Shown here piece after piece: positions 1 through 64,000 of a stretch of DNA of 64,000 nucleotides. The stretch is from positions 1,426,001 to 1,490,000 of the forward strand of contig CP087969.1 in NCBI GenBank assembly GCA_024703915.1, written 5' to 3'. Position 1 is the stretch's first letter; each line of letters starts with the position of its first letter. The stretch is from Massilia sp. H-1. GTDB lineage: Bacteria; Pseudomonadota; Gammaproteobacteria; Burkholderiales; Burkholderiaceae_D. The notes under the pieces were generated by a model, which saw only the letters and a program-made list of their open reading frames with translations, made no database searches and was not told the DNA's origin. The translations under genes and the position numbers were made by a program.

Positions 1-1
1 A

Positions 2-2067
2 GACTTCGACGGCGTGTACTACTCGGTAGGCCGCACCAAAACCAACATCAAAGGCGGCGATCGCGAAGAAGCGTCGGCAATGATCGGTATGACCGGCGAA
101 AAGGCCGCATCATCGCCGGTATGTCCAAAACCAAACGCGACATCATCTACGTGCGCGACTACCCATGGGGTGCCGTCAAAGGCGCGTCGGTATTCTCGAA
201 CTCGTTCTACGCTTCGCGTCAAGATCCAGACACCGGCGAACTGCTGCCAGTGGCAACCGGTCCTGGCTTCCGCGGCAACGCTGGCGCCTGTAACGACCCG
301 GCACGTGGCTTCTACATCCCTGCTGGCCAGGCACCTGGCGTCGAACGCTGCCGTTACGACTTCAACCTGGTAGCCGCTGACGAAGCCGCAACCGGCGCGA
401 CCTCGATCTACGCTCGTGGCGAATACAAGATCAGCGCTGACTTCAACGCTTACGTCACGATGTCGAACACGAACAACACCTCGTTCGGCCGTTACGCTCC
501 AGTACCTGACTACATCCAGGTCGAAGCTGGCGCCGTGGGTAACACCTCGCGCACCCCGAACGCCACCGTGTTCCTGGCACACCGCTTCGCCGCTGCTTAA
601 GCAACCAGCGACACCTCGACCGACGGCAACCTGCTCGACATGAGCATCGGCGTGCAAGGCACCGTGGCTGGCTTCGACATCGACGCTTAGCACCCGCCGC
701 ACCAAATCGCACCTGGTCGAAACCGGCCGTGGCTTCATCGTCAAAGGTCTGGCTACCGCCGCGATCAACAACGGCACCTACCGTACCGATGATCCGTTCC
801 TGAACTCGGACACGGTTCTGAAGTCGATCTCGACCACCACCGGCCGTGATTCGCTGTTCGATTCGACCGAATTCTACGCAAGCGCAACCCACGACGTGTT
901 CAGCATGGCTGGCGGCGCATCGCGTATCTACGCATCGCTGGAACACCGCAAAGAAGTGTACGCCGACCTGTACGACTCGCTGTCGGAAGCTGGCGAAGTG
1001 CTGGGTTCGTCGGGTAGCTCGGCAGGCGGCAGCCGCAAGGTTGACGCAGCGTCGATGGAATGGCTCTTCCCATTCACCAAGACCCTGGAAGGTACCCTGG
1101 CCGCACGTTACGAGAAATACTCGGACTACGGCAACGACTTCTCGCCTAAGGCGTCGGTTCGTTGGGCTCCTACCCGTGCTCTGACCCTGCGCGCATCGGT
1201 TGGCCGCGGCTTCCGCGCTCCATCGCTGCCGGACATCACCGCCAAGCCAGCATTCTCGGCTGACGATATCGTCGATCTGCGTCACTGCCTGGCCGACGGT
1301 GGCTTCACCGCTGCTCAGTGCACCTCGCAGCCATTCCAGATCCAGGCTCTGCGTATTTCGAACCCAGCTCTGGGCTCGGAAAAGTCGAAGCAGTTCTCGT
1401 TCGGCGGCGCGTTTGACGTGACCAACTCGTTCACGATCAAGGCTGACTACTGGAACACCCAGATCACCGACGTGATCTCGTTCGTGAGCGCCCAGGAAAT
1501 CGTTGACCGTGACAACGGCGACACGGACCGTCCGATCCCAGCTGGTCTGTCGATCAAACGTGACCCAGTCACCGGCGCGATCCTGAAGATCACCGCTGGT
1601 TCGACCAACGAAGGCCTGCTGGAAGTACTCGGGTATCGACGTTGGCGCGACCTTCGCGCACAAGTACGCCAGCATCGGCAAGTTCAAGCACGACCTGACC
1701 TGGTCGCACGTGAACAAAACCGAAGTGAACGGCACCGACTTCAACGGCACCTTCTGGTTCGCCGAAGAACCGTCTCGCGCTGAACAACAGCTGGGGCCTG
1801 GGCATGTTCGACGTATCGTGGAACGTGAACGCGATCGGCAAGAACGGCGACAAGGAAGACGGTCTGTACGTGTCGACCTACACCACCCACGACGTTCAAG
1901 CAACGGTTTCCCCAGGCTTCATCAAGGGCATGAAACTGAGCGTTGGTCTGGTCAATGCCTTCAACAAGCAGCCACAGCTCGTGTCGAACGGCGCCAAGCC
2001 ATTCAACTACGACCTGTACGACGCGTATGGCCGTCAGGCTTACTTCCGTCTGGAACAGAAGTTCTAA
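2..2067 (+). CDS. TonB-dependent outer-membrane receptor, C-terminal part
   Basis: This is the barrel part (about 690 residues) of a TonB-dependent receptor; the plug domain lies beyond the left edge. The family forms 22-strand outer-membrane barrels that import siderophores, cobalamin or glycans with TonB/ExbBD energy. Visible are the conserved barrel segment GRGFRAPSLPDI (near 1203-1240), LVNAFNKQPQ near the end, and a C-terminus RLEQKF whose final aromatic residue is the usual BAM signal. The substrate cannot be told. The frame slips near 105 (one G lost), at 595-602 (GCTTAAGC), 685-691 (GCTTAGC), near 1627 and near 1775, but protein similarity continues across each break, so I read one gene. 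A strong terminator follows. Confidence 0.9.
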
Positions 2068-2120
2068 TTCGGAACTTGTTGATCTCAAGGGGTAAGCCTG
2101 GCTGACCCCTGATCTACACT

Positions 2121-2156
2121 AGCCGCAGCGGCTCCTGGTCGCTGCGGCTTTTTTTA
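2121..2156 (+). terminator. Rho-independent terminator after the TonB receptor gene
   Basis: A perfect 10-bp stem AGCCGCAGCG/CGCTGCGGCT (2121-2130 with 2140-2149), a 9-base loop and a run of seven T. Confidence 0.9.
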
Positions 2157-2177
2157 TCCAATTTTTCTAACCGGCTG

Positions 2178-4227
2178 ATGCCCAACATGAAAAACACCCT
2201 GTCCTTGCAGTGCCTGCGCGTGCTTGCCGCCGCCTGCGCGCTGATGATCGCCCAGTTTCCCGCGCAAGCGGCACCCGGCCGCCTAAGACGGCCGCCCAGA
2301 TTCCGGTCCAGGAATTCTTCCGCCGCCCGGCCGCATCCGGGCCCCGCCTGTCGCCTTCCGGCCAAAAGCTGGCTTTACTCATCCCCACCGAAAATGGCCG
2401 CTTCGCGCTGGCAATTGCCGACATCTCCATGCCAACCCGCTTCGTCGGGATTGCCCCTTCGATGATGCCGACGTCGCCGACTTTGGCTGGGTCAATGATG
2501 ACCGCCTGTGGTTCGATGCCACCGACCTGCAGTCCGAACTCTCCGACCAGCTCGGCAGCGGCCTGTTCGCGGTCAATGTCGACGGCAGCGCCTTCACCAA
2601 GATCATTTCGCGCCGCACCGAGAGCAAGTCCGGCTCGGCCGACCGCAACGTCCTGCCGGGCGACCGCAACGCCTTCCTCGGCATCGCCAACGATGGCAGC
2701 GACGATGTCTTCATCCAGCACTACGAGTGGGTGGCCGAAGATGTGCCGCCCGACAGCAAGGTGCTGCGCCTGAACACCAAGACGCGCGAAGCGAAGTCCA
2801 TCATGCCGATCGGCGCGCCCGACGGCGTGAGCACCTGGCTGCTCGACCGCAACCGCGAACCGCGGGTCGCGGTCAGCTCGGACCGCAAGACCAAGGTCAT
2901 CGTGCGCTGGCGCGATCCGGCCAACAACCAGTGGAAGCAGCTGGTCAGCTACGACGCGATCGAGCAGGAATCGCATGCCTTCACTCCGGTGGCCGTCGAT
3001 GCGGACGGACAGCTGTTCGTGACGGCGATCGATCCGGCCACGATGAACGGCGCCAAGACCACGGCCCTGTTCCGCCTCAATCCGGCGACCGGCAAGATGA
3101 GCGACAAGCCGGTGGTGAACCTGAAGGGCTTCGATTTCGACGGCAACGTGATGTTCGATAACGCCAGCAACAAGGCCCTCGGCGTGCTGTTCCGTTCCGA
3201 CGCCGCGGGCGCGGTCTGGTTCGACCCGGTCCTCAAGGCCGACCAGGAAGCGGTCGACAAGCTGCTGCCGGGTACCGTCAACAATCTGTCCTGCAACCGC
3301 TGCGCGAGCGCCCGCCACCTGGTGGTGAACGCCTATTCGGACCGCCAGAGCCCGGTCTACTTCCTGTACGAGCGCGGCACCGGCAAACTGACCCTGATCG
3401 CGTCCAGCCGCCCATGGCTCGATTCGTCCAAAATGGCCGAGCAGGACTTCATCCGCATCAAGTCGCGCGACGGCATGGAGATTCCGACCGTCATCACCCG
3501 TCCGCAAGGCAAGGGCCCCTTCCCGACCGTGGTCCTGGTCCATGGCGGTCCCAACGTGCGCGGCGAAGAATGGGGTTTCGCGGCCGACACCCAGTTCCTC
3601 GCCTCGCGCGGCTACCTGGTGATCCAGCCCGAATTCCGCGGCAGCACCGGCTACGGCGACACCTGGTTCAAGGCAGGCTGGAAACAATGGGGCCTGACCA
3701 TGCAGGATGACGTGACCGACGTCACCAAGTACGCGATCGCCCAGGGCCTGGCCGACGCCAGGCGCATCGCCATCATGGCGCCAGCTATGGCGGCTATGCC
3801 ACCATGATGGGCCTGGTCAAGGAACCGGAGCTGTACAAGGCTTAAGCATCAACTGGGTCGGCGTGACCGACATCGGCCTGATGTACGACATCGGCTGGAG
3901 CGACTTCATGGGCGACAAATGGATGCGCTACGGCATGCCGCGCATGATCGGCGACCCGGCCAAGGATGCGGCCCAGCTGCGCGCCACCTCGCCCCTGGCC
4001 CAGGCGGCGCGCATCAAGCAGCCCGTGATGATGGCCTACGGCGTGGAAGACCGGCGCGTGCCATTGCCGCACGGCACGAAGATGCGCGATGCGCTGAAAG
4101 CGGCTTAAGCAATACCAATGTCGAATGGGTCACCTACGAGGGCGAAGGCCATGGCTGGATGCTGGTCAAAAACAACGTCGATTTCTGGACCCGCGTGGAA
4201 AACTTCCTCGCCAAGAACCTGAAGTAG
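2178..4227 (+). CDS. Secreted S9-family (prolyl oligopeptidase-type) serine peptidase
   Basis: About 680 residues. Residues 1-30 are a signal peptide (LRVLAAACALMIAQ, then AQA), so the enzyme should act outside the cytoplasm. The first ~400 residues suit the family's beta-propeller; the last ~260 form the alpha/beta-hydrolase domain with oxyanion HGGP (near 3541), nucleophile Ser in GASYGGY (3778-3796, where one G is missing and the frame slips), Asp in GVEDRR (near 4040) and His in GEGHGW (near 4150). Further breaks are GCTTAAGC at 3840 and 4103, plus one near 2460. Family members cleave short peptides from the N-terminus. Its place beside a TonB receptor suggests nutrient scavenging, which is inference. 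ATG 2187 is an equally possible start. Confidence 0.9.
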
Positions 4228-10668: not shown

Positions 10669-12335
10669 ATGTTGCGACTGAACGAAGTAAAACTCCCGCT
10701 CGACCACCCCGAACAGGCCCTGACCGACGCCGTCCTGGCGCGCCTGGGCATTTCATGCCTACCGAACTGCGCGGTTTCACCGTGTTCAAGCGCAGCTACG
10801 ACGCCCGCAAGCGCAGCGCCATCGTGCTGATCTACGCGCTCGACGTCGACGTGGCCGACGAAGCGGGCGTGCTGGCGCGCATGAAGGCCGACGCCCATCT
10901 GATGCCCGCGCCCGACACCGGCTATCAATTCGTGGTAGGCGGCGCCCAGCTGCAGGGCCATGACCTGGGCGAGCGCCCGGTCGTGATCGGCACCGGCCCG
11001 TGCGGCCTGTTCGTGGCCCTGATCCTGGCCCAGATGGGCCTGCGCCCGCTGATCCTCGAACGGGGCAAGGTGGTGCGCGAGCGCACCGTCGACACCTTCG
11101 GTTTCTGGCGCAAGCGCGAACTCAATCCGGAATCGAACGTGCAGTTCGGCGAAGGCGGGGCCTAAGCACCTTCTCGGACGGCAAGCTGTACAGCCAGATC
11201 AAGGATCCCAAGCATTACGGGCGCAAGGTTCTGACCGAATTCGTGAAGGCGGGCGCGCCGGAAGAAATCATGTACGTCAGCAAGCCGCACATCGGCACCT
11301 TCCGCCTGGTGAAGATGGTCGAGCAGATGCGGGAAAATATCATCGCGCTGGGCGGCGAATACCGCTTCGGCTGCAAGGTGACCGACATCGAGGTCGACGG
11401 CGAAGGCGCCACGCGCCAGATCCGCGGCGTGACCCTGGCCAGCGGCGAGCAGATCGCCAGCCGCCACGTGGTGATGGCGATCGGCCACAGCGCGCGACAC
11501 CTTTGAAATGCTGTATGAGCGCGGCGTGTACATCGAAGCGAAACCGTTCTCGGTCGGCTTCCGGGTCGAGCATCCGCAATCGCTGATCGACAGCTGCCGC
11601 TTCGGTCCGAACGCTTAAGCAACAAGATCCTCGGCGCGGCCGACTACAAGCTGGTGCACCATGCCAGCAACGGCCGCTCGGTCTACAGTTTCTGCATGTG
11701 CCCGGGCGGCACCGTGGTCTCGGCCGCGTCCGAGCCGGGACGCGTGGTCACCAACGGCATGAGCCAGTATTCGCGCAACGAGCGCAACGCCAACAGCGCG
11801 ATCGTGGTGGGCATCACGCCTAGCCGATTATCCGGGCCATCCGCTGGCCGGGATCGCGCTCCAGCGCCAGCTCGAAGAAGGCGCGTTCGCTGGGGGCGGC
11901 GGCACCTACGACGCGCCGGGCCAGCTGATGGGCGACTTCGTCAAGGGACGCGCATCGACCGCCTTCGGCTCCGTGATTCCTTCGCTCAAGTAGGCGGGTG
12001 CACCTGACCGACTTGTCGGGCTCACTGCCCGAGTACGCGATCAGCGCCCTCAAGGAAGCCTTCCCCGCCTTCGACAAGCAGATCCGCGGCTACTACAAGG
12101 AAGACGCGCTGCTGACCGGCGTGGAGACGCGCACTTCGTCGCCGATCCGCATCAAGCGCAACGACGACGACCTGCAAAGCCTGAACACGCGCGGCCTGTT
12201 CCCGGCCGGCATGAAGGGGCTTACTACGCGGGCGGCATCCTGTCGGCCGCGGTGGACGGCATCAAGGTGGCCGAAGCGGTCGCCCTGTCGATGGCCGCCG
12301 CGCTCAAAGCCAGCCGGACTTCCTGGAAGCGGTAG
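10669..12335 (+). CDS. FAD-dependent oxidoreductase (COG2509-type dehydrogenase)
   Basis: About 545 residues. A ~90-residue N-terminal domain (LRGFTVFKRSYDARKRSAI) precedes the FAD-binding Rossmann motif VIGTGPCGLFVALILAQ (near 10985). Then come FGEGGAGTFSDGKLYS, the central domain with HVVMAIGHSARDTFEML, and the C-terminal flavin region with GLFPAG and YAGGILSAAVDGIKVAEA. The substrate is unknown; the family is widespread and poorly studied. Frame breaks are near 10755, at 11160 (GCCTAAGC), near 11500, at 11614 (GCTTAAGC), near 11820, 11890, 11990 and 12220. The end overlaps the convergent corA end by about 30 bases. The stop is uncertain by a few codons because of indels here. Confidence 0.85.
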
Positions 12336-13270
12336 TACAGATAGCCGCACAGGCCGAACATGAAGGCGAGTGCGGCCGGATAGCCGTAGTGCGACTTGAG
12401 CTCGGGCATGAAGTCGAAATTCATGCCCCATACGCTTCGGCTGAAGGCGGTAAATACCACGAAGATCGCGGCCCACGCGGCCAGCCGCTTGTTGACCTCG
12501 CCTTCATCGATGGCCACCATCGACAAATTCACCTGGATCGCGGTGCCGATCGTGTCGCGGATCGTATCGAGCGAGGTATTGATACGGTACAGGTGATCCT
12601 GGACGTCGTGGAAATAATCCTGGGTATCGCGGCAGAAGGCCTAAGCACGCGGCCGCCGTGCAGCTTGCCGACCGCGTCCAGCAGCGGCGCCACCGCGTGG
12701 CGCAGGACCAGCACCTTGCGCTTGAGTTCATACAGGCGCTCGATATTGTCGCGCTGCGACCCCTTGATGAAGATGCGGTCTTCGATCTTTTCCAGTTCCG
12801 ATTCGAGCATGTCGACCACCGGGAAATAGCGGTCGACGACCGCATCCATCAGCGCATACAGCACGAACGAGGAGCCCATCGCCAGCAGGTGCGGTTCGTT
12901 TTCAGGCGCGCACGCCCAGGAAACCGCGGTTGCAATTGTTCCGTACCGACAGCACATAATTATGGGCGACGAAGATGTCGACCTCGCCCACATTGAGCGC
13001 ATCGCCCTCGAGTTCGACCGTTTGCACGACCACGAACAGCGAGTCGCCGTATTCCTCGATCTTGGGGCGCTGATTGCCGCGCTGCGCATCTTCCACGGCC
13101 AGTTCGTGCAGGCCGAATTCATGCTGCATGACCTTCAGTTCTTCCGGCTCCGGCTCGCGCAGCGCCACCCAGACGAAGGTCTCGGGCTTTTCGATATAGT
13201 CGCTGATGGCCTCGACGGGAATGTCGGACAGCTTCTTGCCTTCCTGGTAGGCGACGCAGTTAATCAGCAT
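12304..13270 (-). CDS. corA: Magnesium/cobalt transporter CorA
   Basis: About 322 residues. A large cytoplasmic domain (N-terminal half, including LHELAVEDAQRGNQRPKIEEY) precedes two membrane helices. The family signature GMNFDFMPEL follows TM1 (near 12425), TM2 is YPAALAFMFGLCGYLYYRF, and the positively charged C-terminal tail is there. CorA pentamers move Mg2+ (and Co2+) down the membrane potential. Breaks are near 12905, at 12642 (GCCTAAGC) and near 12312, where skipping one base gives the usual ending RWL-stop. The start ATG 13270 yields MLINCVAYQEGKKL. A perfect palindrome separates it from ntrC. Confidence 0.92.
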
Positions 13271-13410: not shown

Positions 13411-14896
13411 TTACTCGTCTTTGGCGCCGTCGATGCCGAGCTCGGCGATCTTGCGGGTGATGGTGTTGCGGCCGATGCCGAGCCGCACGGCGGCGTCGTT
13501 CTTGCGCCCGTGCGTGTGCTTGAGCGCGGTCTTGATCAGGGCCGATTCAGAATTGCCGCCCCAGCACATCCATCACTTCCGATTGCCCCGCCGACAGCAT
13601 GCTGGCCGCCTGCAATTCGAGCAGCCCGATCCAGCCGCCCGCCACGCCCAGCGAGGCCATGGCCCCGTTGCTTACCACGACGGCAAGCGGCATCTGGCCC
13701 GGTTCGGCCGCGCCCAGCGCCATGCTGGTTTCGCCCGCCCCTTCCTGGCTAGGCCGTCAGTTCGAGCGGCATGTCTTTCACTTCCACGGTCTGGCCGGGC
13801 GCCATCACGGTGATCCAGTTGCACAGGTTTTCCAGCTGGCGCACATTGCCCGGCAGATCGAGGCTGGCCAGGAATTGCATGGCCGTGTCGCTCATGCGCT
13901 TGGTCTCCACGCCCAGCTGGCGCGCTTTGCACCAGGAAGTGACGCACCAAAATGGGGATATCCTCGCGCCGCTCCCGCAAACTGGGCAGGCGCAAGCGGA
14001 TCACATTGAGGCGGTGGTACAAGTCTTCGTGGAACAGGCCGTCGCGCACGCGCTGTTCCAGGTTCTGGTGGGTGGCGGTGATGACGCGCACATTGGCCTT
14101 CATCGGCTGGTGCCCGCCGACCCGGTAGAAGTGCCCGTCCGACAGCACCCGCAGCAGGCGGGTCTGCAGGTCGAAGGGCATGTCGCCGATTTCATCGAGG
14201 AACAGGGTGCCGTTCTCGGCCTGTTCGAAGCGGCCGCGGCGCGTGGTCTGGGCGCCGGTGAAGGCGCCCCGCTCGTGGCCGAACAGTTCCGATTCGAGCA
14301 AGTCTTTCGGAATGGCCGCCGTGTTGAGCGCGATGAACGGTTGCTGCGCGCGGGCTGTGCTTGTGCAGCGCGCGCGCCACCAGTTCCTTGCCGGTGCCCG
14401 ATTCGCCCGTGATCAGCACCGTCACGTTCGATTGCGACAGGCGCCCGATGGCGCGGAACACTTCCTGCATGGCCGGGGCCTGGCCCAGGATTTCCGGGGT
14501 GTCGGTCGGGCCCGATTCGACGCTGGTTTCGCGCAAGCTTTCTTCGAGCGCGCGGCGGATCAGCTCGACCGCCTTGTCGATGTCGAAGGGCTTGGCCAGG
14601 TATTCGAAGGCCCCGCCCTGGAAGGCGGCCACGGCCGAATCGAGGTCGGAAAACGCGGTGATGATGATGACCGGCAGCCCCGGATGGGCGGCCTTGACGG
14701 TCTGCAGCAAGTCCAGCCCCGATTCACCCGGCATGCGGATGTCCGAGACCAGCACTTGCGGCGTATCGAATTCGAGCGCGGCAATGGCGTCGCGCACGTT
14801 GGAAAAACTTTTTGTAGCGAGGTTCTCGCGTGCCAGGGCCTTTTCCAGCACCCAGCGGATGGAGGCGTCGTCGTCGACTATCCAGATTGGTTTCAT
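13411..14896 (-). CDS. glnG: Nitrogen regulation response regulator NtrC (NR-I)
   Basis: About 490 residues. The receiver domain has the acidic pocket IVDDDAS, phospho-acceptor Asp in LVSDIRMPG and the Lys of LAKPFD. The sigma54-activating AAA+ domain has Walker A GESGTGKE (near 14400), the sigma54-contact loop GAFTGA (near 14260) and Walker B LFLDEIGD (near 14195). A Fis-type helix-turn-helix ([16 protein letters not shown]) ends the protein. Phosphorylated by NtrB, it activates sigma54 promoters when nitrogen is scarce; likely targets in this window are the two sites upstream of glnA. Breaks are near 14345, 13930, 13750 and 13560. ATG 14896 starts [10 protein letters not shown] directly. 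Confidence 0.95.
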
Positions 14897-14966: not shown

Positions 14967-16058
14967 TTATGGCAGCGGCAGCAGTATCCTGAAGTCCGTC
15001 AATCCAGGCCTAGCTCTCGCACTCGATCACGCCCATGTGCTGTTGCACGAAGGTTTGCGCAAGTGTCAGCCCCAGGCCGCTCCCCCTTCCCGTCCCGATA
15101 CCAGCGGATAGAAGATGCGGTCGCGGATCTGGGGTGAAATCCCCGGTCCATTGTCGATGATATGCAAGTCTAATGCCAGCCCGTAGCGAACCTTGGCCAG
15201 GGTCACCTGGCGCGCCACCCGGGTCTTGAAAATGAGCTCGGCCTGGCTTGGCCACGATCTGCCCGGCCAGGGCCTGGGCCGCATTGTGGGCAATGTTGAG
15301 CACCGTCTGGATCAGCTGCTCCTTGTCGCCCCGGAATTCGGGAATCGAGGCGTCATAGTCGCGCTTGATGGTCAGGCCGCTGGGAAACTCGGCCAGAATC
15401 AGGCTGCGCACCCGTTCGCACACTTCGTGGATATTGACGTCGCCCACGATATGCGGTAGAGCGGTGCGGCGCCAGCAGGCGGTCGACCAGGGTCTGCAGG
15501 CGGTCCGCTTCCTTGATGATGACCTGGGTATATTCGCGCAACTGGGTCAGGTGCAGCGGCGGCAGCTCGAGTTCGAGCAGCTGGGCCGCGCCGCGGATGC
15601 CGCCCAGCGGATTCTTGATTTCATGGGCCAGGTTGCGCACCAGCTCCTTGTTGACCTGGCTCTGGTCGAGGATGCGCTCCTCGCGGTCGAGCTTGAGCTG
15701 CTGGACGTTCTCGCGCAGCTCGATCACCAGCCCGTCGTCGCTCTACCGCGCTGACGATGCTGTGCACGTGCAAGGGCTCGCGCCCGCCGCGCTCGAGCGC
15801 CAGGTCCTGGCGCAGGTCGGCGTACTTGTGCGCCAGCGCCTGGCTGCACAGGCTGAGCAATTCTTCGGGATTCTGGAACAGGGAGGCCAGCTGCTGACGC
15901 TGCAGGGCCTTGAGGGAACTGTCGAGCAGGTGTTCGGCGGCCGCGTTGGCCCAGGTGATCAGGCCGTCGGCGTCCACCAGCAGGACGGCCGAGGCCAGCA
16001 GGTCGAGCGCGCCCAGCGACTCTGGCGCATAGTGCGCAAAGCCACTTAGCTCGCTCAT
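14967..16058 (-). CDS. glnL: Nitrogen regulation sensor kinase NtrB (NR-II)
   Basis: About 362 residues. An N-terminal PAS domain ([20 protein letters not shown]) is followed by the dimerisation/phosphoacceptor helix with the H-box [11 protein letters not shown] (near 15620), N-box [11 protein letters not shown]1 [10 protein letters not shown] and G2 [13 protein letters not shown]. It is soluble and signals via PII, phosphorylating NtrC. The apparent TAG at 15010 is a scar (GCTAGGC where GCCGGC is needed); read through, the protein ends RILLPLP. Other slips are near 15750, 15470, 15250 and 15085. The start overlaps the stop of the DUF4124 gene (ATGA), so it belongs to the same transcript. Confidence 0.94.
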
Positions 16059-16571
16059 TTGATGTTCGCGATTTCGCGCTCGAGCGCCTCGATATTCTTC
16101 TCGGCGCGGCTGATGCTGTCCTTCATTTGCTCGACCCGCTCCTGGTACTTGGCGTAATTGCGTTCATTGCCCTGGCGTTCAGGCTCGCCATTGTTGAATT
16201 CTTTCTTCATTTCGGCCAGCTTCTTCTTCTCGGTCCGCAATTCCTCGTTGAGGATCTCGCGCCGGTCGCTGTCGCGCGCCTTTTGCTGCGCATCATTGAC
16301 CTTGGGGAAGTCGGACGGGCTGGTGGCCGGGGCCCTGGGCGCGGCGGCAGCCCGGCGCGGTGCTTAAGCACCGAGACGCCATTGGCGATGTCGAGTGTCT
16401 TGCAACCGGTCTTGTAGGAATCGGTGAGGATCTTGCGCCCTTCGGCGTCGGTGCACAGATAGATGCCTTGCGCTTGCGCTTAAGCAGCTGGACCAGCAAG
16501 GCGCACAGCATGGCAAGCCCCGGTGCAAAGTGGCGCACGGTCAAGCGTGGGGTTGTCAGTTTCATCTCCAT
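16055..16571 (-). CDS. DUF4124-type exported protein
   Basis: About 170 residues. A signal peptide (FAPGLAMLCALLVQL, then Ala-rich) precedes the DUF4124 motif GIYLCTDAEGRKILTDSY with paired Cys (GCKTLDI). A Pro/Arg-rich linker follows, then a charged helix (LRTEKKKLAEMKKEFNNGE) to the end. Proteins of this type commonly sit directly upstream of ntrB in betaproteobacteria; their role is unknown. Breaks are GCTTAAGC at 16479 and 16362. The stop overlaps the NtrB start by four bases. ATG 16565 is an alternative start. Confidence 0.75.
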
Positions 16572-16728: not shown

Positions 16729-18150
16729 TTACAGCGAATAGTACATATCGAATTCAGCAGGGTGCGTGGTCATGCGCATGCGCTGTACGTCCTGCATTTT
16801 CAGTTCGATGTAGGCATCGATCATCGAATCGGAGAACACGCCGCCGCGGGTCAGGAACTCGCGGTCCTTGTTGAGCGTCGAGTGCTTCTTCGAGCGAAGC
16901 GCAGACGGTCGGGATCAGCTTGTCTTCTTCAGGCGGCAGGTGGTACAGATCTTTGGAAGCGGCTTCGCCCGGGTGGATCTTGTTGGCGATACCGTCCAGA
17001 CCGGCCATCAGCAGCGCGGCGAAGCACAGGTACACGTTGGCCAGTGGATCCGGGAAACGGGTCTCGATGCGGCGGCCTTTTGGATTGGCCACGTGCGGAA
17101 TGCGGATCGAGGCCGAACGGTTTTTAGCCGAGTACGCCAGCTTGACCGGTGCTTCGTAGCCTGGAACCAGACGCTTGTACGAGTTGGTGCCTGGGTTGGT
17201 GATCGCGTTCAGCGCCTTGGCGTGCTTGATGATGCCGCCGATGTAGTACAGGGCGTCGTCCGACAGGCTTAAGCATAGCCGTCGCTTATGAACAGGTTCT
17301 TGCCGTCTTTCCAGATCGACTGGTGCACGTGCATGCCCGAACCGTTGTCGCCAACGATAGGTTTTGGCATGAAGGTGGCGGTCTTGCCGTAGCTGTGGGC
17401 CACGTTCCAGACCACGTATTTCAGGTTCTGGGTCCAGTCGGCGCGCTCGACCAGGGTCGAGAACTTGGTGCCGATTTCATTCTGGTTTAAGCGCTAGGCC
17501 ACTTCGTGGTGGTGCACTTCGACCGGGATGCCCATGGCTTCGAGGATCAGGCACATTTCCGAACGCATGTCCTGGAACGAGTCCACTGGTGGCACTGGGA
17601 AGTAGCCGCCCTTGACGGTCGGACGGTGGCCGCTGTTGCCGCCTTCGGTCTTGGCATCGGTCGCCCACGACGATTCGTCCGAATCGATCTTGACGAAGCA
17701 GCCCGACATGTCGATCTTCCAGCGCACGCTGTCGAAGATGAAGAATTCTGGTTCCGGACCGAAGAAGGCGGTGTCGCCGATGCCGGTCGATTTGAGGTAG
17801 GCTTCAGCGCGCTTGGCGATCGAGCGCGGATCGTGGTCGTAGCCCTTGCCGTCGGCTCTACTCGATGACGTCGCACTGCATGAACAGCGTGGTCTCTTCC
17901 ATGAACGGATCGATGTTCGCGGTGTTCGGATCCGGCATCAGCAGCATGTCCGACGCTTCGATACCCTTCCAGCTTAAGCAATCGACGAACCGTCGAAGGC
18001 ATGGCCCGACTCGAATTTGTCGAGATCGAAGTGGGAGATAGGCACGGTCACGTGCTGTTCTTTACCACGGGTGTCGGCGAAGCGGAAATCAACGAATTTG
18101 ACTTCGTTGTCTTTTGCCATTTTCAAGACTTCTGCGGCGGTCATTGCCAT
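16729..18150 (-). CDS. glnA: Type I glutamine synthetase
   Basis: About 471 residues once repaired, the standard GSI length. It makes glutamine from glutamate, ammonia and ATP as a cytoplasmic dodecamer. Motifs seen include FDGSSIAGWKG near the start, [51 protein letters not shown] and the region [10 protein letters not shown] whose Tyr is the usual adenylylation site. It ends FDMYYSL. Scars break it at 17972 (GCTTAAGC), near 17858, 17485-17497, 17265 and 16882. ATG 18150 has AGGAG eight bases upstream. Control by NtrC and sigma54 is indicated by the promoter and operator-like sites upstream. Confidence 0.97.
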
Positions 18151-35001: not shown

Positions 35002-35328
35002 ATGACCCACGTTGTCACCGAATCGTGCATCGCATGTCGTTATACCGATTGCGTCGATGTATGCCCGGTAGATTGTTTCCGGGAAGGCCCGAATTTCCTG
35101 ACTATCGACCCTGACGAGTGCATCGACTGCGCCGTGTGCGTGGCCGAATGTCCGGTCAACGCCATCTTCGCCGAAGAAGATGTGCCTAAGCCGATCAGCA
35201 GCAATTCATCAAGATCAACGTTGAACTGGCGCGCGCCTGGCCATCGATCACCAAGACCAAGCTTAGCCCTGCCAGATGCCGAGCAGTGGAAAGACGTCAA
35301 GAACAAGCTGGACCAGCTGGTCCGCTAG
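35002..35328 (+). CDS. fdxA: Seven-iron ferredoxin FdxA
   Basis: About 107 residues, the usual FdxA size. The N-terminal cluster motif [17 protein letters not shown] and the second motif [16 protein letters not shown] bind one 3Fe-4S and one 4Fe-4S cluster. The C-terminal tail ends [15 protein letters not shown]. It is a cytoplasmic low-potential electron carrier. Scars at 35184 (GCCTAAGC, expected PADQQQF) and 35262 (GCTTAGCC, expected TKPALPDA) break the tail. It is followed 30 bases later by ferredoxin-NADP reductase, its probable redox partner. Confidence 0.95.
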
Positions 35329-37987: not shown

Positions 37988-38039
37988 CGTCTGGCCCCAA
38001 GGAATTAGCACCACTTCAATCAAGAATCCACGCCATCGT

Positions 38040-38110: not shown

Positions 38111-38129
38111 GCGATGTCAGGCGACTATA

Positions 38130-44903: not shown

Positions 44904-46009
44904 GGATCTTGAAACGCGGATCGTCCGGATCGATCGACGAAATGCCGCGTGCTTCTTCGGTCATTTGCGTCTCTTCGGCGCGGTGTTCGCTGTGGCGCTT
45001 CGCTTCCAGGTGCAGGTAGATCGCGTTGACCAGTTCCTGGCAGCCGTCGTGGTTCAGCGCGGAGATCTCAAACACCGGGCCCTTCCAGGCCATGCGCTTG
45101 ATGAAGTCCTTGACGATCTTCTTGCGATCATCTTCCGGCACCACGTCGAGCTTGTTCAAGACCAGCCAGCGCGGCTTGTCGACCAGCGCTTCGTCGTACT
45201 TTTGCAGTTCCTTGACCAGCGCCTTGGCTTCCTTGACCGGATCGACGTTCGTTTCGAACGGCGCCAGGTCGACGATGTGCAACAGCAGGCCGGTGCGCTG
45301 CAAGTGACGCAGGAACTGGTGACCCAGGCCCGCGCCTTCGGAAGCGCCTTCGATCAAGCCGGGAATGTCGGCGATCACAAAGCTCTTCTCGTGCGAGACG
45401 CGCACCACACCCAGGTTCGGGTGCAAGGTGGTGAATGGATAGTCGGCGATCTTCGGCTTGGCGTTCGAGACGGCGGTAATGAAGGTCGACTTGCTTAGGC
45501 GTTCGGCATGCCCAGCAGGCCCACATCGGCCAGTACCTTCAGTTCCAGACGCAGCTCGCGCCGTTCGCCTTCCTTGCCCTCGGTCTTTTGACGCGGAGCG
45601 CGGTTGGTCGACGACTTGAAATGGATATTGCCCCAGCCGCCCTCGCCGCCCTTGGCCAGCAGTTCGGTCTGGCCATGTTCAGGTCAGGTCGGCGATGATC
45701 TCGCCGTTGTTGTTATCGACGATCAGCGTGCCGACCGGCATGCGCATGTAAATGTCTTCCGCGCCCTTGCCATAGCAGTCAGCGCCGCGGCCAGGTTCGC
45801 CGTCTTTGCCCTTGTGCATTTTGGAATAGCGGAAATCCACCAGCGTGTTGATGTTGCGGTCAGCCACTGCCCAGATCGAGCCACCCTTGCCGCCGTCGCC
45901 GCCGTCCGGACCGCCGAATGGGCGGAACTTCTCATGACAGAACGAGGCGCAGCCATTGCCGCCGTCGTCATGCGATGACTTCGATTTTTGCTTCGTCGAT
46001 AAACTTCAT
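44896..46009 (-). CDS. obgE: GTPase Obg/CgtA
   Basis: About 370 residues. The glycine-rich Obg domain ([31 protein letters not shown]) precedes the GTPase domain with G1 GMPNAGKST, G3 [12 protein letters not shown] and G4 NKLD, followed by an acidic C-terminal tail. It is an essential factor in late 50S ribosome assembly and stress signalling. The G1 P-loop contains a scar at 45493 (GCTTAGGC; minus strand GCCTAAGC where GCCGGC encodes Ala-Gly), which alone would kill the protein, a strong sign of sequence error. Other slips are near 45975 and 45675. It belongs to the rplU-rpmA-obg unit. Confidence 0.97.
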
Positions 46010-50358: not shown

Positions 50359-52308
50359 ATGCAATTTCAAATAAGCAGCAAGGTTGAGCGTGCAGCAAGC
50401 GCGCCATCGCCGTCGCGCTCGCCGGTATCCTGGTGCTGCCGGTCACGGCCCGGACCAGCCTGCCCGTCGCGGACGAGCCGGAATCGCTTGCCGCTGCGGC
50501 CGCCAGTGCCGCGCCTGTCACGCCGGCCGTGTACAGCGTCGTCAACGTGGGCATCGAAGACAGCGCCGTGGCCTTGCTCAATGCCCGCGGCCAGGCCGCG
50601 TTTGCCGCCTTTTCCTACACCGGCTACCGTGCTTAGCTTCTTTGACGGCGACCGTTTGCACAATATCGGCTCGCTCGGCGGCAGCCACACCTGGATCTAC
50701 GGCCTGAACCGGCACGGCGTGGTGGTCGGCGAATCCGAAGACGCCGAAGAACACAGCAACATCCTGGGCTTCGCCTGGACCGCGCGCGCGGCATCCGCGC
50801 CCTGGCTTGGCGCCTCCGTCTCGAGCGCGCGCCATCAACGACCGCCACCAGATTGTCGGCCTGACCGCCTCGCCCGGCATTTCCGCGCGCCATCCGCTGG
50901 AATCCGGACGGCACGGTCACCCAGCTGGGCCCGGCTCCACTGTCGCTGTCCGAGGCTTACGGCATCAATGAATGCGGCCTGTCGACCGGCTTTGCCGACG
51001 TGCTCAGCGGCGCCATCCATGCCACCATCTGGGACCGGGCTTAGCACCGTCACCGACCTCGGCACGCCCGGCGGCGACACCGGCTTCGGCATGTTCATCA
51101 ATGACTGCAGCGCCGTGGCTGACTTTGGCGAGAATGCCGCGCGCGACCGGGTGCTGGGCTTTTACTGGAGCCGCGACAGCGGCATGGTGCCGATCGACGT
51201 CGAGGGCGGCGGAACGCGCCTGGTGGCCGACCTGAACAACCGCGGCGAGGTCGTGGGCGACACCGTGATTGACGGGCACACGGCGGCCTATTACTGGACG
51301 CTGCGGCGCGGCCTGATCCCCTTGCCCACCGGCCCCGCCACCGACAGCGACGTATTCGACATCAACAACGGCGGCACCATGGTCGGCCAGATCTGGCGCC
51401 GCCCGGTCGACGGCGGCGGCGCGCGCGCATGCGCTGGCAGGGGCCGGTCATGCCGGTCGACCTGAACACCCGCCTGCACCGACCATGCTACTTACTGGCC
51501 TGGTGCTGCGGGCCGGGGCGGCCATCAATGACGACGGCGCGATCCTGGCCTACTCCAATGCCGGGTTGGTACTGCTGCGTCCCGGCAAGCGCGGCACCGA
51601 TGCCCCCGTGCTCGGCCCCGTGGCTTAAGCTTGCCGGACAGCCCGGAAGTGGGGCAAGACCTGGCGCTCACGCTCGGCTTTGTCGACAACGATCCCGCCC
51701 AGACCCACCGCGCCCGCGTTGTCTGGACCGACGGCTGCCCCTCATGCCGGCGCTTACCGTGAGCGAGACGCGGGGGTGGGCGAGGTACGCTTCCAGCACC
51801 GCTTCTGCAGCGCTTAACTTGCACGCGGTCACGGTCCGGGTCACCGATTCGGGGCGGCCGCACAACCGAGCTGCAGAAGGACATCCTGATCGAAGCGCCC
51901 TCGCTGGCCTCGGTCAGCGGCAAGGGCACGCTCCTGGCCGGCAAGCGCGCGCCTGCCGCTGCGCTTCGCGCTGTGGGCGCCGCTGGGCGAGGCCACGCCG
52001 GAAAAAACCGTTGCTTAAGCAATGCCGCGCTGCTGCTGTCGGGCCCCTTCCAGTTCCGCAGCGAGCAGATGCGCAGCACGCGGGCCGGGCAGCAAGTCCG
52101 CCTGGACGGAACGGGACGCTACAATGGCCAGCCAGGCTACCGCTTCTCGCTTGACGCCAGCGCGACCCGCATGCGCCTGCGCGTCACCCATGCCGATGCC
52201 GCCACCGGCAGCGAGGTGATCGACTACGACAACGGCGGCGCGGCCAAATCGGCGGCCGGGCTTGACCGCACGGTGATCACCGATGGCGGCCTCAGCCTGC
52301 GTCACTGA
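50359..52308 (+). CDS. Exported HAF-repeat-like extracellular protein
   Basis: About 640 residues. After a signal segment (IAVALAGILVLPVTA), the first two thirds hold repeated units with the pattern ...GLNRHGVVVGES, INDRHQIVGLT, YGINECGLSTGFAD, VTDLGTPGGDTGFGMFINDC, LNNRGEVVGDTV and DINNGGTMVGQIW, the HAF-type 'IN.xGxVVG' repeat that likely builds a beta-propeller. The last third has Ig-like strands and ends RTVITDGGLSLRH. The function is unknown; such proteins are secreted or surface bound. It has many slips, including scars at 50630, 51041, 51619 and 52012. Confidence 0.7.
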
Positions 52309-52460
52309 GCCCCCCCTGGCCGGATCGCGTTGTTAATTGAATAACTCGATCCGGCCCCCTGCCCCATTTGGCGCGAACGCGCATCGGCCTGTCGCATTCG
52401 GACAAGACCACCACCCCACGCTCCATTAAATTGGTCGCTCGCTAACCAGAGGAGCGGACC

Positions 52461-54213
52461 ATGTCGAAACGCAGCAGCACGGAACGGCGCCAGTTCATGG
52501 CGGCGATGGGCGGCCTGATTGCCGGCGCCGCGCTTCCCCCGGCCTGGCCCAGGCGGCCACCCTGCCGCCCCGCACCGCCCTCGCCAGTCCCCTCACTGAG
52601 CTGAGCGGCAATTACGACGTCCTCGTGATCGGTTCCGGCTACGGCGGCGCCGTGATGGCGGCCCGGCTCGCGCCCGGACGCCGGCTGGCCGTGCTGGAAC
52701 GGGGCAGGGAGTGGGCGCCCACTGACTTCGCCAGCGGCCTGGCCGACACCCTGGCCCAGTTCCGCTCCGCCGCCAAACCGCTCGGCCTGTTCGACTACCG
52801 CATCGGCAGCACGGTCGATGTTCTGAGCGGCAGCGGCGTGGGCGGCACCTCCCTCATCAACGCCAACGTCGTGATCGCCCCCGACCGCGACATCTTCGCG
52901 CGCTGGCCGCAGGCGATCCAGACCGCCTACGCCAGCGGCGCCATGGACCTGTACGAGGCGCGCGTGCGCACCATGCTCGGCGCCGACAGCGTCGTCGAAG
53001 GCGATGCCCTGCGCAAGAACTGGCTCCACATGTCCGGCGCCAGGGCGCGCCAGCGGGCTTGGCGTCGCGGTCACGCCGCGCACGCTGCCGATCGCCGTCA
53101 ACCTGCGGCGCTACCCGGGCCAGCAAAATGCCCAGGGCGTGTGGCAAAATGCCTGCACTCACTGCGGCGACTGCGTCACCGGCTGCCGCACGGGCGCCAA
53201 GAACAGCCTCGATGTGAACTACCTGCCGCTGGCACGCAGCGCCGGCGCCCAGATCTTCGCGCGCATCGAAGTCGACTGGATCGAGCGCCTGGCCGACGGC
53301 CGCTGGCGCGTGCACTACATGGCCAGGCCCGCCATAGGCGCCGCGGTCGCTCGAGCAGCGTCACCGCCACCAGCGTGATCCTGGCAGCCTACTCGCTCGG
53401 CAGCACCCAGATCCTGCTGCGTTCGCGCGGCCATGGCCTGCCGCTCTCGCCCGCGCTCGGCACCCGCTTTTCCACCAATGGCGATCTGCTGGGCCTGTCC
53501 TACAACACGCGCATCCAGTCCAACATCATGGGCTTTGGCGGGGGCGCGGCGCCGTTCGGACAGAAGCTGACCGGCCCCACCATCACCACCGCGGCCGACT
53601 ATCGCGGCGGCGGCCGCGCGCCGGAGCAGCGCTTCATGATCGAAGACGCCGCCATTCCGAGCGTGCTGGTGGACGCGATGCGGGTCGCGATGCCGCTGGC
53701 GGCGGCTTGGCGTCTATGACTTCCCCGGCACCCAGCGCATCGCGCGCGACGCCCTGTCGCGCCGCAGCGACGGCGCCCTCAATCACAGCATGGTGTACCT
53801 GGGGATCGGCCACGACAGCGCGTCCGGCAGGGTCGAACTGGACGGGAACGGCAACGCGCGTGGTCTGGCCCAAGCTGATGCAGGAGCCGTTCGTGGCGCG
53901 CATGCGCGCCGAGATGAGCGCCCACGCGCAAGCATACGGCGGCAAATTCGCCGACAGCCCGCGCACCAGCGCCATCTTCGGCGGCGCGATGACCACCGTG
54001 CATCCGCTGGGCGGCTGCCCGATGGCCGACCGGGTCGAGGACGGCGTCGTCAATGCCGACGGCGAGGTGTACAACCCGAACGGCGGCGCGCAGGCGGTCT
54101 ACCCCGGCTTGCGCGTGGTCGATGGCGCGATCGCACCGGCCTCGCTCGGGGCCAATCCCCTGCTCACCATCGCCGCCCTGGCCGAACGCGCCGCCGACCG
54201 TTACCGCATCTGA
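52461..54213 (+). CDS. GMC-family oxidoreductase, cholesterol-oxidase-like, Tat-exported
   Basis: About 585 residues. The N-terminus SSTERRQFMAAMGGLIAGAA is a Tat-type signal. The FAD-binding motif is DVLVIGSGYGGAVMAARLAP; DVLSGSGVGGTSLINANVVI, the Cys motif CTHCGDCVTGCRTGAKNSLD and TTVHPLGGCPMADRVEDGVV follow, as in cholesterol-oxidase-type GMC enzymes. It would oxidise a hydroxyl of a steroid or other lipid in the periplasm; the substrate is not known. Slips are near 52538, 53058, 53335, 53706 and 53860. AGAGGAG precedes ATG 52461. It heads a seven-gene cluster with tiny gaps. Confidence 0.9.
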
Positions 54214-54222
54214 GGAGACATC

Positions 54223-54849
54223 ATGAAAAAATTCCTGCTGCTGATCGGGATCCTGCTGCTGCCTGCGCTGGTATGGGCGCGCGGCCTGGCCTTTACCGAG
54301 GAAATGCACGGCTACACCTACTACCAGGGCGAGTACCGCAACGTCAGTGTCCACTTCAAGATCGTGATCAACGACATCGACGCCTGGCGCGCCAACCAGA
54401 ACTACGCGGCCAGCGTCACCGGCACCCTCAGCGTGGACCGGCTCCCCGGCCTACACCGTCAACGGCACGCTGCAGATCCTTCCGCCCGCGCCCAACGACG
54501 CCGGGCGCCTGCTGACCTACCGCTTCATCGGCACCGGGCTGCAGTTCGTCGGGATCAAGCACGTGTACAACAATGCGGGCCTCGATCTGCTGGACGACAT
54601 GACCACCCTGCACGGCCTGTTCCAGCTAACTAGGCCCAGGTCCAGCCCTCGGTCCAGGATCTGCTATACGGCCACCCATGGACCTCGGAGCTGCAGTTCG
54701 AATGGTGGAAGCCTACCACGCTGTGGGATTTTTCCTGGTCCTTCTCGACCATCGCCACGCCCTGGTATGAAGACCTGGCCGTCAAGATCCTGTTCCTGAA
54801 AACGATCTTCGGCGACCTGGCCAAAGTCCTGTTCCCGTGGGCCGCCTGA
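54223..54849 (+). CDS. Exported protein of unknown function, GMC-cluster
   Basis: About 207 residues. The signal peptide MKKFLLLIGILLLPALVWA precedes a beta-rich body (HGYTYYQGEYRNVSVHFKIV, LLTYRFIGTGLQFVGIKHVY) and an aromatic C-terminal part (ELQFEWWKPTTLWDFSWSFS) ending LAKVLFPWAA. No named family is recognised. It starts nine bases after the GMC gene and ends three bases before the AraC gene, so a role tied to the oxidoreductase (partner, substrate binding or localisation) is likely. Slips are near 54445 and 54628. Confidence 0.65.
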
Positions 54850-54852
54850 GCG

Positions 54853-55853
54853 ATGCGCAGCCTGCCCCTGACGCCGAGCGTGTCGACCCTGTATGCGGAC
54901 GCGCTGGGCGCCTTCCTGTCCGAACAGGGCTTGCCGCAGGACGCGCGCTCGCCCGGACCGCGCCTGTGCGGCGTATCGTATTCGACCCTGATGGCGGGCG
55001 CCTCGCGCGAACTGGGCGACCAGGGTCTGGGCCTGCGCTTCGGCGCGCGTGGGCGGGGCCGGCTTCGGCATGCTCGGCATCGCCGCCGCCACCGCGCCCT
55101 CGCTGCGCGAAGCGATCCGCCACCTGACCCAGCTCGAATCGATCACCAGCACGCTCGGCTTCGCCACCGTGCGCCGCCACGGCAGCCGGGTGCACCTGAG
55201 CTGGCAGCCGGCGCAAAGCGTCCCGGCTACCGTGGTCGAGGGCATCCTCATCGGCTGGGTTTCGTTCGGCCGCTACCTGCTGGGCGAGCGGGTCGACGTG
55301 GCCCAGGTCTCGCTGCGCCACCATGCGGCTGGCGCCCATGGCCGTCTACGACGCCGTGTTCGAGTGCCCGGTGCGCTTCGAGACTTGCTGCTACGGCGTG
55401 ACGATCGCCGCCGAGCTGCTCGACGCCCGGCCGCGCTTTGCCGACGACCTGCTCAACGCATCCATCGGCACCTGGCTCAGCCACTGCGCCCGGGCCGCCT
55501 CGGGCGACGCGCTGACCGTCACCCGTTCGGTCAGCGGCCTGCTGCAGCACGCGCTGCCGCTGGCCGAAGCCGACGAATGCACGGTTGCCGCCATGCTCGG
55601 TCTTGAGCGGCGCACCCTGCAGCGCGCGCTGCAGCAGGAGTGCACCTCGTTCCGCCAGATCGTCGGCGCGGCGCGCGCCCAGCACGCCATCATCGCGCTG
55701 ATGCGGGGCGACACCTCGCTGGCCGATCTGGCCGCCGACACCGGCTTTGACGAGCAGTCGTCGATGTGCCGCGCGTTTCGCCGCTGGACCGGCTACGCGC
55801 CGCTCGCCTTCAAGCAGCGCGTGAGCGACGTGTTCCGGCCCCTGCGCGCATGA
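54853..55853 (+). CDS. AraC-family transcriptional regulator (arabinose-binding-domain type)
   Basis: About 333 residues. The N-terminal ligand domain (GLRFGARGGAGFGMLGIAAA, LREAIRHLTQLESITSTLGF) is of the AraC_binding_2/OruR type; the C-terminal domain has the double helix-turn-helix, ending IIALMRGDTSLADLAADTGF then DEQSSMCRAFRRWTGYAPLA. It probably controls the cluster in response to a small lipid-like ligand. Slips are near 55050 and 55322. Its stop overlaps the next start (ATGA). Confidence 0.88.
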
Positions 55854-60207: not shown

Positions 60208-60208
60208 C

Positions 60209-61939: not shown

Positions 61940-62207
61940 GGTGTCTCCATTATCGAAAGGGTGAATCATGAGGCTAGCCCCTGCCCGGTGCAGGGTCAAC
62001 GGAACTGAAAAGATAGTCAAAAACCTCGCGCAATGTCCAAATTGAGACAAAGTTTCATATGAGAATTTTGTGGCGCAATCAGCGCAATCAGCCTGACGCG
62101 ATGCCGCAAGACCGCCGTGCTCCCTGCGTCTACGCTCGAACGCGTCACCGTTTCAACTGCAGCTCATCGTCCAATTTCTAACGAAAATAACAGATGGAGA
62201 CTCGCCA

Positions 62208-63083
62208 ATGAAAACTTGCACGCTGTCCGCACCACTCGTTCTCGGCCTGGCCTTACTGGCCGCCCTCCCCCGCCACTGCTTAAGCAATACCGGCGTCGCT
62301 TTCGTCCACGGCACCGGCAATCATCCCGACGCGATCAATGACTACTGGAGTCCGGACTTCGTCAGTTCGGTGAAACAGGGTTTGCCGAACCAGAGCATGT
62401 CGATCGTCGTCAACTGCGACTTCAGCCAGTACATGTGGACCTCAGGCGCGCAGTAGCTGCCTGGCCAGCCAGCTCCATCCCTTCATCGTCAACAACAACA
62501 TCACCGACCTGGTGATCCAGACCCATTCCAACGGCGGCAACGTGATGCGCTGGATGATGTCGAACCCGACCCAGGATGCGCGCTACCCGGTCATCATCAA
62601 CGCGATCCGCTGGGTCAACGCGATCGCGCCATCCTCGCTCGGCACGCCGCTGGCCGATGCTGCCATTTCCGGCAACGTGTTCGAGTCCGCGGTCGGCTGG
62701 CTGCTCGGCTACAAGAGCGACGCCGTGCGCATGCAGCAGCAAAGCTGGATGGCCAACTACAACGCGACGCTCCTGTACGGCACCATGCGCTGCCCGGCCC
62801 TGCCCAAGCGCTTTTATACCGTGGTCGGCTCCGACGTCGACACCTCGCCCTTCGACGGCGACAGCTACTGCGGCGGCTATCAGTACAACCTGGGTCTGGA
62901 AGTGACCCAGGCCTGGCTCAACAGCTGCTCCGACGGCTTCCTCAACTGCAGCAGCCAGACCGGCGCCAAGCACCATCTGGTTCTACGACAAGAACACGAT
63001 GGCGGGCAGCGAGCCGCTCTCGCACCAGCAAAGCCAAGCGCAGCTGCTTCGGCCTCGATGTCATCCTGCGTAACGACCTGTGA
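62208..63083 (+). CDS. Secreted alpha/beta-hydrolase, lipase-like
   Basis: About 290 residues. A signal peptide (PLVLGLALLAALP) precedes TGVAFVHGTGNHPDAINDYW, where HGTG is the oxyanion loop. The nucleophile Ser is in DLVIQTHSNGGNVMRWMMSN (near 62527). A Cys-rich middle and C-terminal part (YCGGYQYNLGLEV, LNSCSDGFLNCSS) suggests disulfides. It ends GLDVILRNDL. Breaks are at 62276 (GCTTAAGC), near 62453, 62970 and 63040. Lipid or ester hydrolysis is likely, but the substrate is unknown. ATG 62208 has GGAGA upstream. Confidence 0.82.
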
Positions 63084-63100
63084 ACCCGGAGGAGCCGATC

Positions 63101-64000
63101 ATGACCAAGACACTGAACCCGAATACCGTGCGCGCCTTCCTGCTGCTGTCGGCCACCATGCTGGGCGGCAGCGCGTGGGCCGCGCCGCAGTTTCTGCTTA
63201 AGCAGCACCGGGCGACCTGGTGCCGCGCCAACTGCTCGCGCCCGAAGCCATGCAAAGAGCGCAGGCGCGCCCGGCCTGTCGCGCGAGGCAGTCGGCATGA
63301 GCTGGGCGGCCGAGGGCGCGATCGCCACCGCGCCCCAGCCTTTCGTCGGCCAGAGCCGCGAGTACTACCAGGAGGTCAGCGCCGACGAACTGGCCCATCG
63401 GCGTGACGATCCATACCACGTCCCCGCGCGCTGGTCAGGCTGCAGCCGCTGGCCGCCGCTAAGAAGGACGCCATCGCGCCGCAGTCGCTGGTGCTCACCA
63501 GCCCCGCCGGACGCGCCTTCGCGGTAAAGCAGCAGCGGCATGGACATGCTGGCCAGCGCCGACAAGCTGGCAGCGGCTTAGCACCCCCGTTCGCCCAGGG
63601 CACGTCGGCGTTTCGCATCCATCCGGACCTGGGCGCCGGCGCCTTCCGCCTGCAGGCGAACGAGGCGCGCGGCGCGGCCCGTTACCTGGTCAACGTGGTC
63701 GAACCGGACAGCCCGTACACGCTGACCATGCAGACCGACGCCCCCAGCTATCTGCACGGCCAGCAGCTGACCGTGACGCCCGAACTGGTCGAACAAAGCG
63801 GCGCGCGCACGGCGCAGCGCCACGCACTCGGCAAGCTCGATGGCGTGGTGACCTCGCCCGGCGGTCGCAGCTTCCCGGTCGCGTTCAAGATGGAGAAGGA
63901 CGGCCGCCTGCACGCGCGCCTGCCGCTCGACGCCAACGAGGCGCCCGCTCCCGGCCTGTGGGAAGTGCAGGCGTCCGGCCAGACCTTCGTGCGCGGCCAG
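63101..64000 (+). CDS. DUF4785-domain exported protein, partial
   Basis: The gene runs off the right edge after about 300 residues. The signal peptide (AFLLLSATMLGGSAWA) is followed by LLAPEAMQRAQAR, FVGQSREYYQEVSADEL and the Ig-like strands AFRIHPDLGAGAFRLQANEA, YLVNVVEPDSPYTLTMQTDA, SYLHGQQLTVTPEL, matching DUF4785 proteins, which are secreted and often sit beside proteases and lipases. Breaks are at 63196 (GCTTAAGC), near 63285, 63400, 63463, 63525 and 63579 (GCTTAGC). It follows the lipase-like gene by 17 bases and has a GGAGG ribosome site, so the two are an operon. Confidence 0.75.

Follow-up and report, generated by a model that had tools for sequence, protein, structure and literature searches.

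Probable misreading of GCCGGC in the genome assembly of Massilia sp. H-1 and its likely link to an NaeI-type restriction-modification locus

Introduction

Errors that gather at one modified motif have been described for native-DNA nanopore assemblies of Listeria (PMC10687267), Klebsiella (Dcm; PMC6591954) and Neisseria (PMC12506013), and excerpts of the first two reports establish that motif-specific nanopore errors from untrained modifications were already known. According to the quoted parts of the Listeria and Neisseria studies, amplification removes the errors; in Neisseria, methylated sites and the positions adjoining them account for 74.76% of erroneous indels (PMC12506013). Here we analyse a 64,000-nt stretch of the genome of the cave-water Massilia sp. 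H-1 (CP087969.1; genome label G000), hereafter called the window, in which GCCGGC is largely replaced by other, mostly longer strings, termed scars. The H-1 case differs from the three earlier ones in its motif, in the share of consensus sites hit (about 87%) and in the misread itself, which usually adds one or two bases. Very probably an NaeI-like system modifies GCCGGC, likely as 5-methylcytosine (5mC), and base-calling misread the modified site consistently.

The endonuclease NaeI cuts GCC^GGC, and Vsr enzymes mend mismatches that arise from deaminated 5mC. In Neisseria gonorrhoeae, according to an excerpt of PMC12871193, GCCGGC is the target of the methyltransferase M.NgoAIV; of 33 GCCGGC sites in the pilin loci, 32 were read as 5mC. 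Part of another source prints the NgoMIV site as G^CCGGC and the NaeI site as GCC^CCG, the latter apparently a misprint (PMC4081073). Aeromonas hydrophila NEB724 appears in a portion of PMC8565308 with GCCGGC and the number 3, which is taken to be the methylated position.

The genome of strain H-1 (RCAM05339, CP087969) was announced with 5,836,689 bp and 8,116 coding sequences. Its reads were obtained on MinION R9.4.1 with native barcoding and Guppy 5.0.11 calling; Flye served for assembly, and Racon and Medaka for polishing. The announcement mentions neither short reads nor scars (PMC9933642). The deposited sequence is thus, according to this source, a native-DNA nanopore assembly without short-read correction. 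In a word search of the open-access literature, the announcement was the only paper that names CP087969. For a protein of the window, the named loci with the nearest relatives belong to Massilia and Telluria, followed by other Oxalobacteraceae and further Burkholderiales, which agrees with this origin.

Results

Loss of GCCGGC and appearance of scars

The window contains 16 intact GCCGGC sites, while 57.5 are expected under a Markov model, 102 from the density in the nearest relative (label G006) and 127 from the CGGCCG count of the window scaled by the regional ratio in G006. Only three of the 71 G006 GCCGGC sites that align in the window are intact. Seven strings, referred to as canonical scars, occur there 62 times: GCTTAAGC (20, with 0.7 expected), GCCTAAGC (8), GCTTAGGC (6), GCTTAGC (13), GCTAAGC (1), GCCTAGC (7) and GCTAGGC (7). 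Together they are found 473 times per 464 kb of H-1 and 33 times per 480 kb of G006, a density that predicts about four per 64 kb.

An initial annotation, made from the letters of the window alone, had reported about 60 scar places, a number borne out by these counts, and all five intact sites that it named (5473, 7134, 12205, 34691 and 48470) are among the 16. Its estimate of about 75 GCCGGC sites in total was too low, and its proposal that scars and intact copies cover the whole expectation did not hold, since 62 and 16 leave sites over; the remainder is in minor forms. The annotation had also listed CAA/TTG forms among the scars. As a class these were rejected, being mostly ordinary sequence with similar counts in both genomes (GCCAAGC, 86 per 464 kb of H-1 and 93 per 480 kb of G006; GCTTGGC, 128 and 120), although a few do align to GCCGGC.

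The shortage extends over the whole genome, a single contig with a completeness of 48.22. GCCGGC is found 1,645 times and the control CGGCCG 8,570 times, a ratio of 0.19, whereas the ratio is 1.46 to 1.76 in 12 congeners among the 20 relatives searched. With the ratio of G006, about 12,560 sites would be expected, so that about 87% are missing. The initial annotation had proposed a genome-wide count as a check, and this roughly eight-fold deficit speaks for its reading; a normal count, the outcome it had named as refutation, was not obtained. The string GCTTAAGC occurs 1,773 times in H-1, 13–41 times in 16 congeners and at most 165 times in the other 375 family genomes (maxima taken by eye). 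Nanopore sequencing appears to have misread nearly nine in ten GCCGGC sites.

Concentration of length changes at one motif

We aligned 464 kb of H-1 around the window with 480 kb of G006 by blastn and kept 70 of 111 blocks (non-overlapping, with a minimum of 200 columns and 74% identity), which cover 322 kb. All hexamers that occur at least 40 times in G006 were scored as intact or length-changed in H-1. GCCGGC has the highest length-changed share among them (37.8% of 547 sites; median 3.5%), and it is intact in 27 of the 547 (4.9%; median of the hexamers 39.6%). Three hexamers with 41–51 occurrences are equally or more rarely intact, but only 2–9% of their sites are length-changed. Among sites with well-conserved flanks, 17 of 374 GCCGGC are intact compared with 105 of 258 CGGCCG. 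Such a concentration at one motif, far above the others, is the pattern of modification-induced nanopore consensus error.

When both genomes were compared with three further congeners (26–27 kb aligned), inserts of 1–2 nt numbered 5.06 per kb in H-1 and 2.64 in G006, and deletions 3.10 and 2.72. The excess of about 2.4 inserts per kb is comparable in magnitude to the loss of GCCGGC, about 1.9 sites per kb genome-wide.

Shape and flank dependence of the scars

At the G006 GCCGGC sites, H-1 carries 113 single-base, 112 two-base and 18 three-base inserts. Deletions number 44, and 23 of these remove a single base. The scars are largely strand-symmetric: in the 464-kb region GCCTAAGC occurs 61 times and its counterpart GCTTAGGC 62 times, while GCTTAGC and GCTAAGC form an uneven pair (100 and 44). 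An A follows GCCTAAGC in 50 of 61 cases and a T precedes GCTTAGGC in 50 of 62; the flank profile of the former and the complement of that of the latter mirror each other (r=0.91). A random forest trained on six flanking bases assigned the scar type with an accuracy of 0.37, compared with 0.25 for the commonest class and 0.18–0.23 for shuffled labels. The effect of the flanks on scar type is therefore real but partial. Intact sites favour a 5' CA (46 of 260 flanks, compared with 54 of 1,536 in G006) and are unevenly distributed along H-1, with a variance of 4.7 at a mean of 2.2 per 8 kb. The scar pattern resembles what a base-caller might produce on reading overlapping words of a modified palindrome.

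An NaeI-type restriction-modification locus

The initial annotation had suggested a search for a GCCGGC-specific methyltransferase of the NaeI/NgoMIV kind, and the genome does contain an NaeI-type locus. It lies outside the window (G000:C1:3045939-3048515) and consists of genes for a C5 methyltransferase, a Vsr endonuclease and an NaeI-family nuclease. The methyltransferase gene (C1:3046005-3046978, minus strand) is the sole PF00145 gene of the genome and was matched in two pieces (1.8e-47 and 5.2e-11). Beside it lies the vsr-type gene (3047215-3047619, plus strand; PF03852, 1.7e-28; TIGR00632, 1.7e-39). The nuclease (3047696-3048515, plus strand) occupies two frames (PF09126, 8.7e-48 and 1e-12), and the best PDB match of one piece is NaeI itself (1ev7, 7.7e-26). 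An NaeI-family nuclease with an adjoining C5 methyltransferase is the composition of an NaeI-type Type II system; the H-1 locus differs from the NaeI system in that both genes are split into two frames. Since Vsr enzymes act on mismatches from deaminated 5mC, the vsr-type gene supports a C5 chemistry.

NaeI was found in three of the 392 family genomes (H-1, G207 and G240) and the methyltransferase, at an E-value of 1e-40 or better, in six; in the 16 congeners searched neither was found. Both genes are whole open frames in G240 and G207, where Vsr-like frames were seen by eye between or beside them.

Close to the locus, at C1:3051184-3052845, frames resembling a DUF262 protein and a nucleotidyltransferase were noticed by eye; a Rhodococcus NaeI locus is likewise flanked by DUF262 and HEPN genes. 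A second methyltransferase gene of the genome, of the N6/N4 type (PF01555; C1:2924431-2925039), stands among genes that by eye resemble those of histidine biosynthesis. Its NCBIfam names are of the adenine type, all under the cut-offs. PF02384 matched three stretches at two places. The PF01555 gene and the PF02384 matches were tentatively set aside.

Specificity suggested by homologues

Homologues of the methyltransferase were matched in 1,476 records of a plasmid collection, of which the best 30 were listed and six neighbourhoods opened. Among the matches listed, homologues adjoin NgoMIV or NaeI nucleases in five places. An annotated NgoMIV nuclease is next to the homologue in Azonexus and on an E. 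coli plasmid, an annotated NaeI and a Vsr are beside it in Rhodococcus, an unannotated nuclease in a gonococcal record matches NgoMIV at 1e-188, and in Loktanella NaeI lies, by position, within about 400 bases of it. In Kovacikia the neighbour is unnamed, and in Methylocaldum a more distant homologue (34% identity) is accompanied by Vsr and a GIY-YIG nuclease. In five of the neighbourhoods GCCGGC is intact at 3–19 sites apiece, and the three eight-base scars are absent from all five.

Over 240 aa, the H-1 methyltransferase shares 55% identity with the gonococcal enzyme that has NgoMIV as its neighbour. The gonococcal system (NgoMIV/M.NgoAIV), with the site GCCGGC and the mark 5mC in the cited excerpt, resembles that of H-1 in its methyltransferase, but its nuclease belongs to a family different from NaeI. 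A stretch close to the target-recognition region, present in the H-1 and G240 enzymes, is missing from the gonococcal methyltransferase. Judging from the homologue neighbours and from the motif of the scars, the H-1 locus would recognise and methylate GCCGGC. As a separate observation, one methyltransferase family pairs with two unrelated nuclease families of the same site, NgoMIV and NaeI (L145, L146, L147 and L162).

Origin of the scars

In the mechanism that we propose, GCCGGC receives its mark, most probably 5mC, on both strands from the methyltransferase of the NaeI-like locus. Native DNA was read on MinION R9.4.1 and called by Guppy, and polishing drew on no other reads (PMC9933642). Misreading of the modified site would then be consistent, flank-dependent and strand-symmetric, and the consensus would become GC-TTAA-GC, GC-CTAA-GC, GC-TTAG-GC, GC-TTA-GC and other forms, usually one or two bases too long. 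From this combination we infer an active methyltransferase, 5mC as its product and base-calling as the source of the error. The interpretation given in the initial annotation, a modified motif that was misread, is supported, and its reasoning from the letters alone was sound.

Several observations weigh against this proposal. The methyltransferase and the nuclease are split in H-1, without any of the seven canonical scars inside. These breaks could stem from errors of minor form or be genuine lesions; in the latter case the enzyme would be dead and the mark might come from elsewhere. The PF01555 methyltransferase could in principle be an N4-cytosine enzyme, and scar type is only partly predictable from the flanks. 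Published methylation errors are mainly substitutions, with indels too, in the portion of PMC12506013 considered. The 11 scar sites named in the initial annotation all align to G006, and five of them (17972, 45493, 37870, 35184 and 32832) do face GCCGGC, but the other six (37438, 37631, 37790, 35262, 32869 and 32928) face a one-letter near miss. Finally, G207 has the NaeI locus and a 5.13-Mb contig (C17), probably from long reads, yet no scars. As G240 and G207 both carry the locus unscarred, the locus alone does not scar an assembly; the reading method must matter, or the mark differs.

The last point leads to the alternative to which we give most of the remaining weight, though we consider it unlikely: GCCGGC is modified, but not as plain CpG 5mC by the NaeI locus, the candidates being 5mC at the other cytosine, a bulkier or further modified base, phosphorothioation, and N4-methylcytosine made by a different enzyme. 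A version of similarly low probability holds that the mark is a different or further modified cytosine, or outer 5mC, whose effect on the pore signal is large enough to be read as one or two additional bases; the scars would then betray a so far undescribed modification step linked to an NaeI-Vsr locus. Besides the unscarred G207, the split methyltransferase gene and the additional N6/N4-type gene are in keeping with such a mark, as is the addition of one or two bases, which is unlike the mostly C-to-T errors quoted for 5mC in Neisseria (PMC12506013). The Neisseria data come from R10 and those of H-1 from R9.4.1, however, so that error shapes are not directly comparable, and the only C5 methyltransferase match of H-1 sits in an NaeI-type locus, just as the motif predicts. 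Tet_JBP and DndE had no match in H-1, but none in 14 control genomes either, so this does not show their absence.

A generally poor assembly, with GCCGGC as one of many error contexts, seems very improbable. It could draw on 1,663 gaps in the alignment with G006 that shift the frame but lie clear of GCCGGC and of scars, and on TTTTTT and CGCGCG, which are also often length-changed (18.6% and 13.3%). These distant gaps, however, are near the level that congeners show among themselves, and the excess in H-1 consists of inserts, in numbers comparable to those of the lost sites; on the congener baseline given above, low quality was rejected as the main cause. Restriction systems can select against their own sites, and the strings might on that ground be real, GCCGGC having been lost through restriction avoidance or through a mutation or insertion process with TTAA-like targets. 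We regard this as next to negligible in probability. G240 and G207, which have frames for the methyltransferase, a Vsr-like protein and NaeI, keep normal counts of GCCGGC relative to CGGCCG (15,954 to 10,790 and 10,276 to 5,843) and have GCTTAAGC only 20 and 39 times, which argues that restriction avoidance is not the cause. In H-1, moreover, glnA is among the genes that scars disrupt, and the genome, a single closed contig, reaches 48% completeness. The grounds for rejecting real mutation are that housekeeping genes are broken and that the source is nanopore-only (PMC9933642).

If misreading of a modified GCCGGC is the cause, false changes at this motif in the deposited 'complete' genome number on the order of 11,000 and are mostly frame-shifting, which fits the 48% completeness and the 8,116 coding sequences in 5.84 Mb. 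The apparent gene breaks, thousands in number, are then probably errors, and work on pseudogenes or gene loss based on the H-1 genome would be misled. An assembly alone could in this way reveal the modified motif of its source, and the motif could be paired with a restriction-modification locus of that genome; such a motif-to-locus check could be run across public long-read genomes. A word search of open-access texts, which is weak evidence of absence, found none tying GCCGGC or NaeI methylation to such scars; what is new here is the GCCGGC case with an NaeI-Vsr locus and base-adding scars.

Individual sites and minor observations

Scars and related features of the window are listed in Table 1. 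The N-terminal frame of glnA ends at 17977, within a scar, and the protein resumes in another frame (by eye). Pfam matched two pieces each of the PHB depolymerase (phaZ) and of the antiporter; for glnA and obg, one pair of chosen frames gave no Pfam match.

Table 1. Scar sites and related features of the window, with the comparison to the nearest relative G006
Feature	Position	Gene or remark	Basis or G006 counterpart
62 canonical scars	1..64000	spread across window	string positions and G006 comparison
GCTTAAGC	595..602		opposite GCCGGC
GCTTAAGC	4103..4110		opposite GCCGGC
GCCTAAGC	11160..11167		opposite GCCGGC
GCCTAAGC	12639..12646		opposite GCCGGC
GCTAGGC	13748..13754		opposite GCCGGC
GCCTAGC	15008..15014		opposite GCCGGC
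GCTTAAGC	16478..16485		opposite GCCGGC
GCTTAAGC	17972..17979	glnA, at frame break	opposite GCCGGC
GCTAGGC	22976..22982		opposite GCCGGC
GCTTAAGC	25665..25672		opposite GCCGGC
GCTTAGGC	29266..29273		opposite GCCGGC
GCCTAAGC	32832..32839	Na+/H+ antiporter gene	opposite GCCGGC; Pfam for gene
GCCTAAGC	35184..35191	ferredoxin gene (fdxA)	opposite GCCGGC
GCTTAGGC	37438..37445	phaZ	near miss, not GCCGGC
GCTTAAGC	37631..37638	phaZ	near miss, not GCCGGC
GCCAAGC (minor scar)	37869..37875	phaZ	opposite GCCGGC
GCTAGGC	43861..43867		opposite GCCGGC
GCTTAGGC	45493..45500	P-loop of gene called obg in the initial annotation (by eye)	opposite GCCGGC
Stretch with 8 of the 16 intact GCCGGC	50522..55212		string positions

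Half of the intact sites of the window thus lie in one short stretch. Intact GCCGGC are also clustered at G000:C1:1258042-1263525, with 10 in one 8-kb bin. Flank context may be a partial cause of both clusters, and unmethylated patches are possible.

Another string, GCGATCGC, is found 59 times in the 464 kb of H-1 (C1:1226001-1690000) and 17 times in the 480 kb of G006, with no visible link to the scars. An 84-base imperfect palindromic repeat at 38034-38117 of the window has many matches on both strands in H-1 and G006, with several tandem copies at the corresponding place in G006, and looks like a REP or MITE element.

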